Assembly (NCBI GenBank): GCA_003218475.1
Contig: QHNR01000111.1
Location: 1-43,348 of the forward strand
DNA: 43,348 nucleotides
DNA from: Verrucomicrobiota bacterium
GTDB lineage: Bacteria > Verrucomicrobiota > Verrucomicrobiia > Chthoniobacterales > UBA10450
Direction: 5' to 3'
Shown here one piece after another: positions 13,548 to 23,589 of this stretch. Numbering within the stretch: the first letter of the stretch is position 1; every line of letters begins with the position of its first letter. Under the pieces are notes generated by a model that did no database searches, was not told the origin of the DNA, and saw only the letters and a list, made by a program, of their open reading frames with translations. A program made the translations under genes and the position numbers.

Positions 13548-15920
13548 ATGCCCATTCAGATCAAGAACGAGATCCAGCTCGAAATCGCCCATGTCTTGTT
13601 CATAGACATTGTAGGCTACTCGAAGCTTTCGATTAGCGACCAGCACGCGGCGGTTGAAGAGCTAACCCGGATTGTTCGCGCGTCGGAACAGTTTCAACGA
13701 GCCGAAGCCGCGAGCCGTTTGACCAGGATCCCAACCGGCGACGGGATGGCGCTGGCATTTTACACGACTCCGGAAGCGCCTGCGCAATGCGCGGTGGAGA
13801 TCAGCCGCGCTCTCAAGGAACATCCGCGTCTGCAACTTCGGATGGGAATCCACAGCGGGCTAGTTGGCGGGGTGGTCGATGTAAACGAACGGGCCAATCT
13901 CGCGGGCGCTGGCCTTAACGTGGCGCAGCGAGTGATGGATTGCGGCGACGCCGGGCACATTCTTCTATCCAAACACGTCGCTGAAGATCTGGAAGAATAC
14001 CAGAGGTGGCGACCGTTCCTGCACGATCTTGGTTCGTGCGAAGTGAACCACGGGGTGCGCGTCTCGGTCGTGAACCTCTATGACGATCAATTCGGCAATG
14101 CGAAGCTGCCGCAGAGATTTGAGACGGCGCAGAAACGCCGGAAGCGTCTGCGCTGGGCGACAATCGCAGCAGCGTTGCTTGCGCTCTCGGCAATTGTCGC
14201 GGGTGCGGTAGTATTTTCCCGTAATCGCGAGCGATCGACGCTGGCAGCGCCGGAGAAAAGCATCGCTGTTCTCCCATTCGGAAACCTGAGCCGCGATGCT
14301 GAGAACGCTTACTTTGCCGAAGGTATCCAGGACGAAATCCTGACGCGTTTATCCAAGATCGCCGACTTGAAGGTCATCTCGCGCACGTCCACACAACATT
14401 ACAAAAGCGCGCCGGAAAACCTGCGTGAGATCGCAAAGCAACTTGGTGTCGCTCACATCCTGGAAGGAAGTGTGCAGAAGAGCGGCGACGCAGTGCGCGT
14501 AAACGTGCAGCTAATCAAAGCAGCGAATGATTCCCATCTTTGGGCCGATACGTTTGATCGCAAATTGACCGATATCTTTTCGGTCGAGAGTGAGGTCGCC
14601 AAATCGATTGCTGAGCAGCTACAGGCGAAACTTACTGGCCAGGAAGAGCAAATCATCGGTGCCAAACCAACAGATAATCCTGAAGCTTACGATGCCTACC
14701 TGCGTGGGCTGGCTTATACCCTAAAGACTGTCGACACACCCGCCAATGCCCTCGCCGCGCAGAAATATCTCAAAGAAGCAGTGCGGTTGGATCCGAAGTT
14801 CGCCCTTGCCTGGGCGCACCTCTCAATCGTTGATTCGCGCAACTACCGCCAACAGAGTCTTCAGCCAACGGTCGCCCTCCGTGAAGAGGCGCGGCAAGCC
14901 GCCGAAACCGCCCTCACTCTTCAGCCCAATCTCGGCGAGGCCGTATTGGCGAAGGGATCCTACTACTACTTTTGTCTGAAAGATTATGACACAGCAGTGC
15001 GTTACTTTGAACAAGCACGTCAACTCCTACCGAATAGCAGCAGAATTCCAGAATCGCTGGCCTATTTGGAGCGGAGGCGAGGCCAGTGGGACAGGAGCGA
15101 GTCGTACTTCAACGAAGCCGAGAAGCTTGACCCGCGCAACCTTCACCTACTCACGCAGCACGCGGTTACCTATATCTCTCGTCGTCGTTTCCCAGAAGCG
15201 CTGCAGAAACTTGACCAGGTTCTGAATATCACACCGGACGACGTGGATGCTCTCGCGCTAAAGGCGCTTATCGCACAAGCCGAGGGTGATCTGCCACGTG
15301 CTGCTGCACTACTCGCTCCGCTGCATCCGAACGCCGACAACCCCGACGCCTTGGGAACACAAGTGTACCAAGCGATCTTGGAGCGCCGCCCTGCACCGGT
15401 CATCCCTCGGCTAAAGGAAATACTCGCCAAGCCCGATCCAGCGTTGGGTTATAGCAATGGCGAGCTGCGCTTTTTTTTAGGCTGGGCGCAGGAAGTCGCC
15501 GGCGACCTTGCCGCCGCCCAGGAAAGTTGGCGACAAGCGCGCAGCGAACTGGAACCTCTCCTCAAAGAACAGCCGGAAAATTATTACCTGATTGGAGATC
15601 TCGCGCTCTTCAATATGGGTCTCGGTGACAAAGCCGCCGCGTTGGCTCTGTCGGAGCGGGCCATGGCCGCGAATCCGATCGAGAAAGACCCCTCGACTGG
15701 TCCTTGGTCGCTCGAGATCCTCGCCCGGGTGGCGGCGCAGATGGGGGAGCCCGACCGCGCCATCGCCGCTTTACAGAAACTACTTTCGATACCGTACGCC
15801 GGCTCAATGAGTACAATCATGCCGCTCACTCCAGCGCTGCTCCGGCTCGATCCAATGTTCGATCCGCTCCGGAGTGACCCGCGTTTTCAGAAACTCGCCG
15901 CGTCGCCCGCGCTGAAATGA
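13548..15920 (+). CDS. Class III adenylate/guanylate cyclase + TM + TolB-like + TPR protein (paralog 1)
   Basis: 'HVLFIDIVGYSKLS', 'RIPTGDGMALAF', TM 'WATIAAALLALSAIVAGAVVF', 'KSIAVLPFGNLS...YFAEGIQDEILTRLSKIADLKVISRTS', C-terminal TPRs. Confidence 0.92.
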   Translation: MPIQIKNEIQLEIAHVLFIDIVGYSKLSISDQHAAVEELTRIVRASEQFQRAEAASRLTRIPTGDGMALAFYTTPEAPAQCAVEISRALKEHPRLQLRMGIHSGLVGGVVDVNERANLAGAGLNVAQRVMDCGDAGHILLSKHVAEDLEEYQRWRPFLHDLGSCEVNHGVRVSVVNLYDDQFGNAKLPQRFETAQKRRKRLRWATIAAALLALSAIVAGAVVFSRNRERSTLAAPEKSIAVLPFGNLSRDAENAYFAEGIQDEILTRLSKIADLKVISRTSTQHYKSAPENLREIAKQLGVAHILEGSVQKSGDAVRVNVQLIKAANDSHLWADTFDRKLTDIFSVESEVAKSIAEQLQAKLTGQEEQIIGAKPTDNPEAYDAYLRGLAYTLKTVDTPANALAAQKYLKEAVRLDPKFALAWAHLSIVDSRNYRQQSLQPTVALREEARQAAETALTLQPNLGEAVLAKGSYYYFCLKDYDTAVRYFEQARQLLPNSSRIPESLAYLERRRGQWDRSESYFNEAEKLDPRNLHLLTQHAVTYISRRRFPEALQKLDQVLNITPDDVDALALKALIAQAEGDLPRAAALLAPLHPNADNPDALGTQVYQAILERRPAPVIPRLKEILAKPDPALGYSNGELRFFLGWAQEVAGDLAAAQESWRQARSELEPLLKEQPENYYLIGDLALFNMGLGDKAAALALSERAMAANPIEKDPSTGPWSLEILARVAAQMGEPDRAIAALQKLLSIPYAGSMSTIMPLTPALLRLDPMFDPLRSDPRFQKLAASPALK

Positions 15921-18283
15921 ACATGCCCGCCGAAATTAAGAAAGAGATCGCGCTTGAAATCGCCCATGTCCTGTTCATCGACATTGTTGGCTACTCGAAG
16001 CTTTCGATTAGCGACCAGCACGCGGCGGTTGAAGAGCTAACCCGGATTGTTCGCGCGTCCGAGCAATTTCAACGAGCTGAAGCCGCGAGCCGTTTGACCA
16101 GGATCCCAACCGGCGACGGAATGGCGCTGGCATTTTACACGAGTCCGGAAGCGCCTGCGCAATGCGCCGTGGAGATCAGCCGCGCTCTCAAGGAACATCC
16201 GCGTCTACAACTTCGGATGGGAATCCACAGCGGGCTAGTTGGCGGGGTGCTCGATGTAAACGAACGGGCCAATCTCGCGGGCGCTGGCCTTAACACGGCG
16301 CAGCGAGTGATGGATTGCGGCGACGCCGGGCACATTCTTCTATCCAAACACGTCGCTGAAGATCTGGAAGAATACGAGAAGTGGCAACCGTTCCTGCACG
16401 ATCTTGGTTCGTGCGAAGTGAAGCATGGCGTGCGCGTCTCGGTCGTGAACCTCTATGACGATCAATTCGGCAATGCGAAGCTGCCGCAGAGATTTGAGAC
16501 CGCGCAGAAACGGCGGGTGCGTCTGCGCTGGGCGACAATCGCGGCAGCGTTGCTTGCGCTCGCGGCAATTGTCGCGGGTGGCGTAATATTTTCCCGTAAT
16601 CGCGAGCGATCGACGCTGGCTGCTCCGGAGAAAAGTATTGCCGTGCTTCCATTTGAAAATCTGAGCGAAGACAAAGCCAACGCCTACTTTGCCATGGGCA
16701 TTCAAGATGAAATTCTGACGCGCCTATCCAAGATCGCTGATCTCAAAGTCATCTCGCGTACTTCCACACAACATTACAAAAGCGCGCCGGAAAATCTGCC
16801 GGAGATTGCCAGGCAACTTGGCGTGGCTCACATTCTGGAAGGTAGCGTGCAAAAAAGCGGTGATGCGGTGCGCGTGAATGTGCAGTTGATCAAAGCAGCT
16901 AACGATTCCCATCTTTGGGCCGATACCTTTGATCGTAAACTGACGGACATCTTTTCTGTCGAGAGTGAGGTGGCCAAAGCTATTGCGGACCAGCTTCAAG
17001 CCAACATTTCCCCGACTGAAAAGGCGGCGATTGAGAAAGCCCCGACAACCGATCTTGTCGCATACGACCTTTACCAGCACGCCCAGGCGCTGGTCGCCGA
17101 TACATCCGATGCTATCCATGCAAGGGAGAAGCTGCCTCAGGCAGCACAGCTGCTCAATGAAGCGCTCGCGCGGGATCCGAACTTTTTACAGGCTTGGTGC
17201 CTGCTCTCCAGAGTGCATAGTGTTGCGTACTTTAGGGGCCATGATCACACGCCGGCCCGTCTCGAGCTGGCCAAGACCGCGCTGGATCGCGCTATACGCC
17301 TCCAACCAGACGCGGGTGAAATCCACCTTGCATCGGCGAATTACTACTACCAGGGCTTTCGCGACTACGAGCGCGCCCGCAGCGAACTGGCTATTGCCAG
17401 AAAGACGCTGCCGAACAATGCTGATGCATTCCTGTACACGGGCCTGATCGACCGACGCGAAGGCCACTGGGAAGAAGCAACTCGCAACATGGAGCGCGCT
17501 CTTGAGCTGGACCCGCGCAACTACTTCATTCTCCAGCAACTCGCTTTCGCTTACGGATGGCAGCATCGCTACGCCGAAGCAGCCCGAATCTATGATCGAG
17601 CACTGACGATCGTGCCGGCGGATCCGAATACTCGCATACAGCAGGCGCTGGTTGCGTTGGATTGGCAGGCTGACATCAAACCCTTTCAGACTACCCTGGC
17701 CGGTTTGATGGCTGAAGATCCCAGTATGGCGCTCGATATAGATACGCTCCTGTATTCTTTCTGCGATCGGGCGTGGGCTGCCGCGACCTGGGTCCTGACA
17801 AACTATCCGCGTGAGGGCGCCGCAAATAATGGTGTCAACTATCCGTATGCATATTGGCAGGGCGTCCTTGCTCGCTCCCAGGGTGATTCACGCACAGCGC
17901 GGGTCGCCTTTGCCGCTGCACGCAGAGAAGTCCAAAAGATAGTGGACCAGCAGCCCAATTTCGCGGCTGCTATTAGTCTGTTGGGAATGATCGACGCCGG
18001 TCTCGACAAAAAAGAAGAGGCCCTAAAGGAGGGTCAACGCGCGTGTGAATTGCTGCCCATTTCCAAAGACGCTATCGACGGTGCATCCCTGGCCATGAAT
18101 CTGGCGCAGATCTACACTTGGCTCGGTGATAAAGATCGCGCCATCGAACAGATCGCGACGCTGGAACGCATCCCGAACCCCCTCAGCTATGGTCTTCTCA
18201 AACTGCACCCTTACTGGGACTCACTGCGTGGCGATCCGCGCTTCGAGAAAATCGTTGCCTCGCTCGCGCCGAAAGAACGGTAA
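15917..18283 (+). CDS. Class III adenylate/guanylate cyclase + TM + TolB-like + TPR protein (paralog 2)
   Basis: Same architecture; N-terminal part nearly identical to paralog 1; ATGA overlap with upstream gene. Confidence 0.92.
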   Translation: MNMPAEIKKEIALEIAHVLFIDIVGYSKLSISDQHAAVEELTRIVRASEQFQRAEAASRLTRIPTGDGMALAFYTSPEAPAQCAVEISRALKEHPRLQLRMGIHSGLVGGVLDVNERANLAGAGLNTAQRVMDCGDAGHILLSKHVAEDLEEYEKWQPFLHDLGSCEVKHGVRVSVVNLYDDQFGNAKLPQRFETAQKRRVRLRWATIAAALLALAAIVAGGVIFSRNRERSTLAAPEKSIAVLPFENLSEDKANAYFAMGIQDEILTRLSKIADLKVISRTSTQHYKSAPENLPEIARQLGVAHILEGSVQKSGDAVRVNVQLIKAANDSHLWADTFDRKLTDIFSVESEVAKAIADQLQANISPTEKAAIEKAPTTDLVAYDLYQHAQALVADTSDAIHAREKLPQAAQLLNEALARDPNFLQAWCLLSRVHSVAYFRGHDHTPARLELAKTALDRAIRLQPDAGEIHLASANYYYQGFRDYERARSELAIARKTLPNNADAFLYTGLIDRREGHWEEATRNMERALELDPRNYFILQQLAFAYGWQHRYAEAARIYDRALTIVPADPNTRIQQALVALDWQADIKPFQTTLAGLMAEDPSMALDIDTLLYSFCDRAWAAATWVLTNYPREGAANNGVNYPYAYWQGVLARSQGDSRTARVAFAAARREVQKIVDQQPNFAAAISLLGMIDAGLDKKEEALKEGQRACELLPISKDAIDGASLAMNLAQIYTWLGDKDRAIEQIATLERIPNPLSYGLLKLHPYWDSLRGDPRFEKIVASLAPKER

Positions 18284-20009: not shown

Positions 20010-20100
20010 CTCCATGCTCACAAACAGCTTTGATGTCCCCATAAAGACATAGGACTAAAGTCCAATATGCGCGTCTCGGGAGTACTGTTAGAGTTGGTTT

Positions 20101-20290
20101 GATTACGTCACCCGACGTCCCAACGTACTTTCTGCCGGACTTAAAGGCCGGTTGAGAGGCTTTAACCTTCGCTGAGACACCGCCTAACGCGATCTCCAGA
20201 TTCACCCGGAGCCCCGAGGCTTCCGAAATGAGGCCGCTCTTCAAAGCGCCTCCTGAAGAAGGTTCCTCGTTTCGCGCGAATTTGGAGCAG
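20101..20290 (+). ncRNA. Candidate structured RNA element, copy 1
   Basis: Noncoding element aligned along its length with 22193-22385; conserved 'TTCG[C/T]TGAGACACCG' and hairpins; located just upstream of ORF 20316. Confidence 0.45.
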
Positions 20291-20315
20291 TCAACATCTA
20301 AATGAAAGGCTGTTT

Positions 20316-20573
20316 ATGAAATTCGCTAGCCTCACCAAGTCAATAGCCGTGCCTCACCAAATCCACACCTACGCCGAACTCCGGCAACAGATTCACCACG
20401 ACCTGCGGATTCAACACCCCGAATCGGTCCAACCAAATGGCGAGTCCCCCATCTGTGATTCTTACGAGGTGCGCCTCATGGAACTGCCGATACATTCACG
20501 CCAACGGGATCCAACTAGTCTGTCGCTGATATTCATCGCGCACTTGAACAGGGAATTGGAGGGTAAACAATGA
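20316..20573 (+). CDS. Hypothetical protein
   Basis: 85 aa ORF overlapping (ATGA) the next ORF. Confidence 0.45.
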   Translation: MKFASLTKSIAVPHQIHTYAELRQQIHHDLRIQHPESVQPNGESPICDSYEVRLMELPIHSRQRDPTSLSLIFIAHLNRELEGKQ

Positions 20574-20971
20574 CGGCGATTCCAGTCCAGTTCAAAGATG
20601 AATCTGTCAAACTCGACGATGTCGAGGAGGGCAGGGTCCTGACGGCGCTCGAAGTCATGTATGAGGGCGGCTCGCTCCACGGCAAGACCGCTGATCTCCC
20701 CTCGCGCGACCTCGAGCGCGTGGTGCTTCGCGTCCACGGGCGTAATCGGCATTTCTTTCAAACCTATGAGCGCACAATCTGCGTCGATATTCGCAGCCGG
20801 CGAACGATCTTTCGCTACGCCGGCCTCACTTCTAAATCCAACAACAGCAGTTGGTGGAAGAGGCTGCTCTGCTACGACTGCCCTGCAAAGAGAAAGAGCG
20901 AAAACGCAAATGAATATCGCGTGCAGTTCGCGGCGCTTCGCATCCGCAAACTGAAGGCCATCCAAATATGA
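20570..20971 (+). CDS. Hypothetical protein
   Basis: 133 aa ORF coupled to 20316-20573. Confidence 0.45.
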   Translation: MTAIPVQFKDESVKLDDVEEGRVLTALEVMYEGGSLHGKTADLPSRDLERVVLRVHGRNRHFFQTYERTICVDIRSRRTIFRYAGLTSKSNNSSWWKRLLCYDCPAKRKSENANEYRVQFAALRIRKLKAIQI

Positions 20972-21017
20972 AATTTTTCTGCTCGCTCGTCGCCCCGCAG
21001 TTTTTTCGTCGATAGAC

Positions 21018-21614
21018 ATGAAGACGATAATGTTGATACTGGCGGCAATAGCGACGATGTCGTTTGCCATGTGCCTAGATGCACAAGGGCAACGCCTTTC
21101 CCTGCCGGAAGGTCAGGCAGACTCGCGAATACCGCTGCCTGCGCAATTTCGGGTTAGCGTGGAGGAAGGCATTATCACGCTGAGGGACATGAACAGTGGA
21201 AAAGTCGTGGGCAGGACGACCTTTGAGAGGTTGGGAGTGGTTACACCAACACAAGATAAACTCCGCCATGTGGCCCTTGATGTCACTGCGGCGGTCGTCG
21301 CTGGAAATGGGAGTAGGGAGCGCATCGTTAACCCCCTTCACAAGGTTTACACAGTCGCGGACCATAAGAAAGGCAAAGCGGCATACGCAACAAGCTTGAG
21401 CATGATGTTGCATTTGTTCTCTCGAGTGACACACAGACGAACGGTCGTTATGAGGCACTCATTGAGGACAGGCCGTGAAAGGTTCCATAGGCAGAGGCCA
21501 CGAAAACCGGCGAAGTTCGTGGCGACTGTGAAAGAGCAGCCGTCGCAAATTCAAAAGGTGAGCGCACAGCTTGAAGTGAGCAAACCGGCGCCGCAAGTGG
21601 TCCACAATCCCTAG
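21018..21614 (+). CDS. Secreted hypothetical protein
   Basis: Signal peptide-like 'MKTIMLILAAIATMSFAMCLDAQG'. Confidence 0.55.
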   Translation: MKTIMLILAAIATMSFAMCLDAQGQRLSLPEGQADSRIPLPAQFRVSVEEGIITLRDMNSGKVVGRTTFERLGVVTPTQDKLRHVALDVTAAVVAGNGSRERIVNPLHKVYTVADHKKGKAAYATSLSMMLHLFSRVTHRRTVVMRHSLRTGRERFHRQRPRKPAKFVATVKEQPSQIQKVSAQLEVSKPAPQVVHNP

Positions 21615-21700
21615 AGCTGCGGCCGCCAAACAACCAGCAGCATTTCACAATCAGCCGTCACGTTTCAGCGCGCGGCGGCTTTTTGTTTTGCCCGCTACGG

Positions 21701-21781
21701 CTCTTTGAACTCACCCGCGTGCTCGTGCGTTTCGATCACGTTGTCCGCTTCATCGTAAACGCGAATCACAGCATCATGTGA
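21701..21781 (-). repeat. Dispersed ORF family A fragment
   Basis: 'SHDAVIRVYDEADNVIETHEHAGEFKE'. Confidence 0.8.
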
Positions 21782-22079
21782 TCTTTTGCATTTTTCTCCC
21801 GGCGACAAGATCAAGAATTGCTCGGCGCAATTTCTCGCGGTCTGCTGGATTGTCCGCGTCGAGTTTAAGGTTCATCGCCTCCGCCACGGTTTTAGCGTAA
21901 GCAATGCCCTGCTGCTCGACCAATCGCTCCCAGCGTTCATCGGCCATAACCTCGATAAGATTGGAGACGGAACGCTTCTCTAAAGAGGCCATTTGTCCCA
22001 GTTTGTTCCGTTGCTCCTCACGCACCGTCAGGTTGAGCTTCGGTTTGTTCTTGTTCTTCTTGGATTTTGCCACTCCCAC
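21774..22079 (-). CDS. Ribbon-helix-helix-like DNA-binding protein
   Basis: Basic N-terminus, 'LNLTVREEQRNKLGQMASLEKRSVSNLIEVMADERWERL'. Confidence 0.6.
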   Translation of the reverse strand: MGVAKSKKNKNKPKLNLTVREEQRNKLGQMASLEKRSVSNLIEVMADERWERLVEQQGIAYAKTVAEAMNLKLDADNPADREKLRRAILDLVAGRKMQKIT

Positions 22080-22192
22080 GTAAATCGCTCCTCCGATCTC
22101 AAGCGGACAGGGTCTTATAGGCTAAAAAACGTCAGTCGTAAAATGTGTTCTTGAGATGCGTCATATCTCCATATAAAAGGCGTATCCAATAA

Positions 22193-22385
22193 GATTTCGT
22201 CATCCGACAGTTTCACCTGATCTTCGGCACGGCTGAATAAGCCGCAGGGGCTGGACGTTCGTTGAGACACCGTTTAGCGCGATCCCCGAGATCCAACTGG
22301 AGCCCCTGAGTCAGCCAAAGCGACGCCGCTTCTTCCAAGCGCCTCGTGAGGATGGTTCCTGGTTCCGCACGGAACTGGATTGCAG
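22193..22385 (+). ncRNA. Candidate structured RNA element, copy 2
   Basis: As copy 1; perfect hairpins CGGCT-GAATA-AGCCG and GTTCC-GCAC-GGAAC; upstream of PT-tailed secreted gene. Confidence 0.45.
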
Positions 22386-22413
22386 TAGTTCAACAACCCA
22401 ACCTCAACAAAAA

Positions 22414-23589
22414 ATGCAAAAGCAAGCTAACTCATCTATTAAGCCCATTTACTTTGGAACGCATTGATCCTGGTTTCACTTGTCGCCGTCAGCGCGATTC
22501 CATTCACGCTCGCGCAGCGAAGTAGCATGAAGCAAAGCGCGCAGTTCCAAAAGGCGCTCCCGAGCCAATCCCAAACTTTCACCTTGCCTGGCAGCAGTCT
22601 CGCGCCCGATATGACGGCGTGGAGTCACGCCGGTCCAGCGACTCCAACGCCAACGTGCATACCAAGTCAGTTCCACGTGCTCATCGTCTACAGCGATACC
22701 CTCGCGCCTACCCAATTGCAAAGCCAGATACTGGCCGAGCCAGGGGGTTGCGATAGTTGACCTGTTCGATGCAACCAGCGGTACGCCCACCCTGGGACAA
22801 CTCCAGCAATACCAGATTGTGGTGCCACTCAGCAATATTGCCTCCTCCGGGTTCCAGGATGCGACTACGCTTGGCAACAACTTGGCCGACTACGTGGATG
22901 GCGGTGGCGTGGTGGTCCAGCATGGGTTTACCTTTTACGGCCCGTTCCCGCAGGCAATCAACGGCCGATGGGTGACCGGTAACTACAACCCGTATAACTA
23001 CTCGACGAACTTCCTAGATTTCGGCTTCACCCTGGGGACATTCAACGCGGGGCACCCCCTCATGGCTGGCGTCACCACCCTCCACGCCGGCTTCGCAGAG
23101 AACCTAACGCTTGCTGCTGGAGCGACAGAGGTGGCGCAGACCAACGTCGCCACCTCGCTGGTGGCGTTCCGGCCGGTCAGCGGCGGGCACACCACTGTGG
23201 GTGTCACCGCCTACCTCGGGGTAACCTCGTCCGGGAGCGGAGATTGGGGCAAGGTGATAGCGAACGCCGGCAGGTGGCTGATTGGCGACCCCTGCCCATC
23301 GCCCACGCCGACTCCGACAGCGACAGCCATAGCTACATTCACGCCGACACCGACTGCAACGGCGACCGCCACAGCTACGCTTACATTCACGCCTACACCA
23401 ACTCCAACAGCGACATTCACGCCGACGCCTACAGCTACATTTACCCCGACGCCAACGGCTACGTTTACTCCAACGCCAACAGCGACGGCAACAGCAACGC
23501 CAACGGCAACCTCAACACCTACCCCAACAATTGCACCAAGACCTACACCGACGCCCAGGCCGCGCCCGACTCCCCCGCCTCGGCCATGA
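22414..23589 (+). pseudogene. Secreted protein with PT-rich C-terminal tail, interrupted by one or two frameshifts
   Basis: Frame 22464 '...LAEPGGCDS*' resumes one base off as 'VAIVDLFDATSGTPTLGQLQQYQIVVPLSNIASSG...' ; tail 'TPTPTATFTPTPT...APRPTPTPRPRPTPPPRP*'. Confidence 0.7.
23300..23586 (+). repeat. Tandem PT/AT-codon repeat tract
   Basis: Degenerate 'acnccnacnccnacngcnac' codon repeats. Confidence 0.9.

Follow-up and report, generated by a model that had tools for sequence, protein, structure and literature searches.

Two copies of a conserved element in the window

The window, a stretch of 43,348 nucleotides from a Verrucomicrobiota bacterium of the order Chthoniobacterales (contig QHNR01000111.1), contains two stretches of ~190 bases that can be aligned end to end. 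Each is followed on its 3' side by a + strand open reading frame, as the original prediction had it. The secreted PT-tailed protein announced for one of these frames is encoded after copy 2, in a gene that is split by a frameshift in the assembly. The features of the locus are listed below.

20052..20063, + strand: palindromic box GGACTAAAGTCC upstream of copy 1
20101..20202, + strand: copy 1, conserved 5' core (P1, P2 and core strand), from covariance model R1
20105..20118, + strand: copy 1, P1, ACGUC-ACCC-GACGU, from the sequence; could equally be a DNA palindrome
20135..20151, + strand: copy 1, P2 hairpin, CCGG...CCGG, from the sequence
20203..20290, + strand: copy 1, 3' domain, from alignment A5 and pair counts
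20230-20234 with 20248-20252, + strand: copy 1, P5, GAGGC with GCCUC, supported by the tree-based null
20269-20273 with 20278-20282, + strand: copy 1, P6 hairpin, GUUUC with GAAUU, without support from the tree-based null
20316..20573, + strand: ORF of 85 aa (MKFASLTK...) directly downstream of copy 1, of the kind that follows "type 1" copies
22193..22292, + strand: copy 2, conserved 5' core, from covariance model R1
22223..22255, + strand: copy 2, P2 region, from the sequence, model R1 and covariation
22223-22228 with 22250-22255, + strand: copy 2, outer P2, UUCGGC with GCUGGA
22230-22234 with 22240-22244, + strand: copy 2, inner P2, CGGCU with AGCCG, covarying beyond the tree-based null
22293..22385, + strand: copy 2, 3' domain, from the sequence, alignment and pair counts
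22362-22366 with 22371-22375, + strand: copy 2, 3' hairpin, GUUCC with GGAAC
22464..23589, + strand: gene of the secreted PT-repeat protein downstream of copy 2, in two frames, start codon uncertain

Covariance model R1 was seeded with 34 other copies of the element, none of them from the window, and covers its 5' ~100 nt. It matched both copies, with 72.8 bits (E = 2.7e-15) for copy 1 and 82.0 bits (E = 2e-17) for copy 2, at the same start points as had been proposed from inspection. The conserved blocks quoted in the original prediction are present as given, and the 5' hairpin can be drawn as described (copy 1, CCGG/CCGG; copy 2, CGGCU-GAAUA-AGCCG). No other helix of the family varies as much, and this one covaries. 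For the 3' hairpin the reported change from U-A to C-G is real, but across the family the helix finds no support beyond phylogeny. A central CGCT(N)AGCG hairpin, claimed for both copies, had to be abandoned: copy 1 carries CGCT but AACG, copy 2 carries AGCG but CGTT, and relatives do not retain the motif either.

The frameshift in the PT-repeat gene lies near a G run at ~22745 and may be a sequencing or assembly error or reflect a broken gene.

Secondary structure and covariation

From the diverged copies, the 5' core of ~100 nt is made up of the P1 hairpin, a two-part P2 hairpin and then a conserved strand, CUUCGCUGRGACACCGCUUAACGCGAUCUCC. P1 (ACGUC/GACGU) is near-invariant and shows almost no compensatory changes. 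The outer part of P2 reads UUCGGC/GCUGGA and the inner part CGGGCU/AGCCCG, the latter being swapped for example to CGGCU/AGCCG, and some copies carry a single CCCCGAA/UUCGGGG hairpin. The 3' domain, with P5 (GUGAGGC/GCCUCRU) and P6 (GUUCC/GGAAC), is more variable than the core; certain copies have the core alone before the gene, and downstream of truncated copies intact genes are still found. At two loci, L130 and L154, an insert of ~100 nt rich in TTGAGAGTTGAG-type inverted repeats replaces the P5 hairpin. An additional CUCCAG/CUGGAG hairpin was rejected on inspection, being broken in many copies.

In the alignment of 104 copies to the model, which is biased towards the structure used to fit it, 91.9% of cells pair, and neither the observed pairing nor the covariation score was reached in 500 shuffles. 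The signal was weaker when the 34 seeds were aligned with MAFFT without fitting to the structure; here 5 of 500 shuffles reached the score and 1 of 500 the pairing. For the unfitted alignment of the 3' domain, with a structure picked by eye, neither was reached in 500 shuffles. A stricter null, in which substitutions were redistributed on the tree (400 replicates), singled out two helices. Inner P2 is 86.3% paired as compared to 76.4% under this null, with 49 double-changed cells against 12.2, and none of the 400 replicates attained either value. P5 is 87.6% paired against 69.2% (0/400 replicates), with p = 0.04 for double changes. P1 (p = 0.04) and P4 were marginal, and outer P2, P3 and P6 received no support beyond phylogeny. 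An R-scape-like test of all pairs returned no individually significant base pair. The covariation expected from the original prediction is thus found at the level of two helices and not of single pairs, and the case for structure rests on inner P2 and P5, the conserved core being otherwise mostly invariant. Thermodynamic folding agreed only weakly with the structure, with z-scores between −0.7 and −1.3 as compared to −0.3 for controls. RNAalifold gave little signal for the first 52 copies and for 83 cores, which we put down to misaligned loops.

Distribution of the element

More copies are found in the window's own genome, on at least three other contigs. DNA searches with either window copy as query located the element in 25 of 35 genomes of the genus and, in a first draw, in none of the genomes outside it. 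The covariance model matched ~150 places across the order. They lie in 50 of 213 genomes, distributed over 8 of 45 genera with up to 15 matches per genome, and bear out the expectation of further homologs. All matches fall into one family of the Chthoniobacterales, Ca. Udaeobacter and relatives, a largely uncultured group that ranks with the most abundant bacteria of soil. Among 390 genomes across the phylum only two matched, both of that family; these scans used strict filters, with which weak relatives outside the family may be missed. An exact degenerate pattern of 24 bases matched 66 stretches in 85,462 GTDB genomes, on contigs titled Udaeobacter, Spartobacteria, Chthoniobacterales or Verrucomicrobia, with the exception of one contig titled Acidobacteriaceae, which may be misbinned. 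The homologs in many genomes rule out chance resemblance or a local duplication of two copies. A viral origin was likewise discarded: scans of IMG/VR viral contigs by protein and by pattern were both empty, the latter with 0 matches.

Conservation of the core

At eight loci that precede one orthologous secreted gene, the identity of the core was mostly 0.87-0.92. Third codon positions of the same gene were mostly at 0.58-0.70 (0.88 in the closest pair) and the upstream DNA at 0.53-0.72. For 124 related pairs with secreted genes, which are non-independent as many come from a shared locus, the means were 0.84 for the core and 0.60 for third positions. Past the P1 region, the remaining ~75 nt of the core show a conservation close to that of codon positions 1 and 2, whereas the flanks drift. 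That core identity outlasts third codon positions points to selection on the core.

Promoter geometry and downstream genes

Positions are counted here from the aligned element start, three bases 5' of GATTACG. A −35-like motif (TTGAC/TCGAC) precedes 82 of 135 copies and almost invariably occupies −37 to −34; among control windows it was present in 8 of 103. A −10-like box is found at −13/−12. By the same measure the boxes of the two window copies themselves are only weak. The GGACTAAAGTCC palindrome upstream of copy 1, for which chance predicts 0.01 occurrences in the window, has counterparts upstream of 26/135 copies and is a possible regulator site. Promoters of two distinct types lie in front of one and the same leader, so the shared unit is the leader and not the promoter. 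The longest downstream ORF lies on the same strand as the element in 101 of 116 cases, so that the element occupies the fixed place between promoter and same-strand gene by which a cis-acting leader is recognized. From this promoter geometry we infer that the element is transcribed.

The genes that follow are mostly unrelated to each other and largely encode predicted secreted repeat proteins. The MKFASLTK ORF belongs to a small protein family (MKF) that accounts for 20 of 127 downstream ORFs; a relative of this ORF had no match in Pfam. Among the other 107, a strong hydrophobic N-terminal stretch, a crude proxy for a signal peptide, is present in 80, as compared to 109 of 231 control ORFs. 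Matches to Pfam and NCBIfam include beta-propellers, delta-60/DUF5122, Kelch, NHL, collagen-like, S74 and laminin G domains, with few members each. Not obviously exported are the MKF small proteins and the products of two genes starting with MTPRPPIFIS. At some related loci a short ORF (MVPGSARNWIAVNAVQQ..) starts from the P6 region, its stop overlapping the gene start as ATGA. Coupling to such an upstream ORF is suggestive in some copies and was dropped as a general explanation, 81 of 132 copies having no such ATG.

Between 20000 and 22600, the region of both window copies, no terminator-like site was detected. U runs occur in 8 of 127 leaders, and Shine-Dalgarno-like motifs precede 35 of 127 starts, which barely exceeds the control frequency. 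Together these results argue against the common riboswitch platforms and would thereby favor a trans factor or ligand acting on stability, translation or elongation.

Comparison with known RNA families

At gathering score, Rfam 15 recognized only a tRNA elsewhere in the window, and no family for the element. The c-di-GMP-I (GEMM) riboswitch is likewise a leader RNA, often found 5' of genes with surface or extracellular functions; under relaxed Rfam thresholds it was absent from the window region up to E = 5 and from eight relative loci up to E = 0.5. The SAM-II riboswitch (RF01726) appeared at 22342-22430 with 24.7 bits, below its gathering score of 44. It was rejected, as the match covers no more of copy 2 than its 3' end, together with the spacer, and is absent from copy 1 and from the eight relative loci. 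EAR elements, LoaP leaders and 5' stabilizer hairpins are leaders that serve processive antitermination or mRNA stabilization; they are 5'-terminal and structured and stand on genes or operons, some of them for extracellular products. The element has no sequence or Rfam match to these, and some of its target genes are short. With orphan cis-regulatory motifs and riboswitches it shares a conserved, probably structured 5' core, a variable 3' part and the position at predicted message starts in front of several different genes. It differs from them in its restriction to one bacterial family and in genes that mainly encode exported repeat proteins, and neither a ligand nor a terminator or Shine-Dalgarno switch came to light for it. 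Open-licence PMC papers on riboswitches in Udaeobacter, Chthoniobacter or Verrucomicrobia contained nothing on the element. The proposal of an undescribed structured RNA thus holds up, homologs being many, two helices covarying, and neither an Rfam match at gathering score nor a conserved reading frame being found. We class the element as a previously uncatalogued RNA family among cis-acting leader RNAs, not as a confirmed riboswitch.

Assignment of the element

We attribute the element, with a probability of roughly 60%, to a structured cis-acting 5' leader RNA that is confined to one family of Chthoniobacterales and marks a regulon of exported proteins. The leader would begin at the predicted transcription start or within a few bases of it. 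It is carried by numerous genes that are unrelated to one another, the majority of them encoding exported repeat proteins; it would thus mark a regulon and probably control these genes jointly. Most likely a trans-acting factor or a small ligand binds the conserved core, and binding would alter the fate of the message after initiation by way of stability, translation or antitermination. More tentatively, the leader may form a new regulatory class, either an unknown-ligand riboswitch or a docking site for a regulator, and coordinate the expression of exported surface proteins as one regulon. Within the leader reading, a metabolite or ion riboswitch of unknown class, with the core as aptamer and the 3' part as expression platform, would agree with the conserved core and variable 3' domain, the position at message 5' ends and the several copies before different genes. 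We consider this sub-case doubtful, given the lack of an intrinsic terminator at the window copies, the low counts of U runs and Shine-Dalgarno-like motifs, downstream genes that suggest no metabolite and the occurrence in one family only.

An explanation at the DNA level, a promoter-proximal operator (ACGTC-N4-GACGT, around +5 to +18) whose duplication took downstream sequence along, draws on P1, a near-invariant palindrome with compensatory changes almost nil, and on copies that retain only the first ~25-40 nt, although the search pattern itself used that segment. It is unlikely in view of the other ~75 nt of conserved core and the covariation of inner P2 and P5. A mobile or repeated promoter-leader cassette, spread by duplication and functionless itself, could account for the many copies, among them partial and paired ones and many at contig ends. 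We regard it as improbable: the distance to the same-strand gene downstream varies rather little, IMG/VR yielded no pattern match, and a non-systematic look revealed no transposase associated with the copies. The core, moreover, has outlived flanks and third codon positions at orthologous loci across species, which also argues against the passive DNA repeat that the original prediction had named as a possible refutation. Least probable is that the element is coding sequence or a leader-peptide region, decayed or still under translation; protein-like parts in two frames and the short P6-region ORFs with ATGA overlap would point to it. Stops recur in every frame in most copies, conservation lacks a 3-base periodicity, loop lengths vary by non-multiples of three, the ATG is missing from most copies, and a fused peptide from the element used as query found only the element itself and no parent protein. 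The decayed coding sequence, the other refutation foreseen, is thereby disfavored as well.

As a structured leader, the element would add a new RNA family for ligand and binding-protein tests, and by tagging exported repeat proteins it would allow a regulon of otherwise unannotated surface genes to be traced by sequence.

Other features of the window

Near-identical peptide ends of the AVIRVYDEAGNVIETHEHAGDFKE type occur at six places on the minus strand (~12099, ~19138, ~19642, ~21736, ~23694 and ~25421) and appear to represent a repeated protein tail. Finally, two neighboring ORFs at 13548-18283 (790 and 788 aa) each combine an adenylate/guanylate cyclase domain with TPR repeats and look like a tandem duplication.
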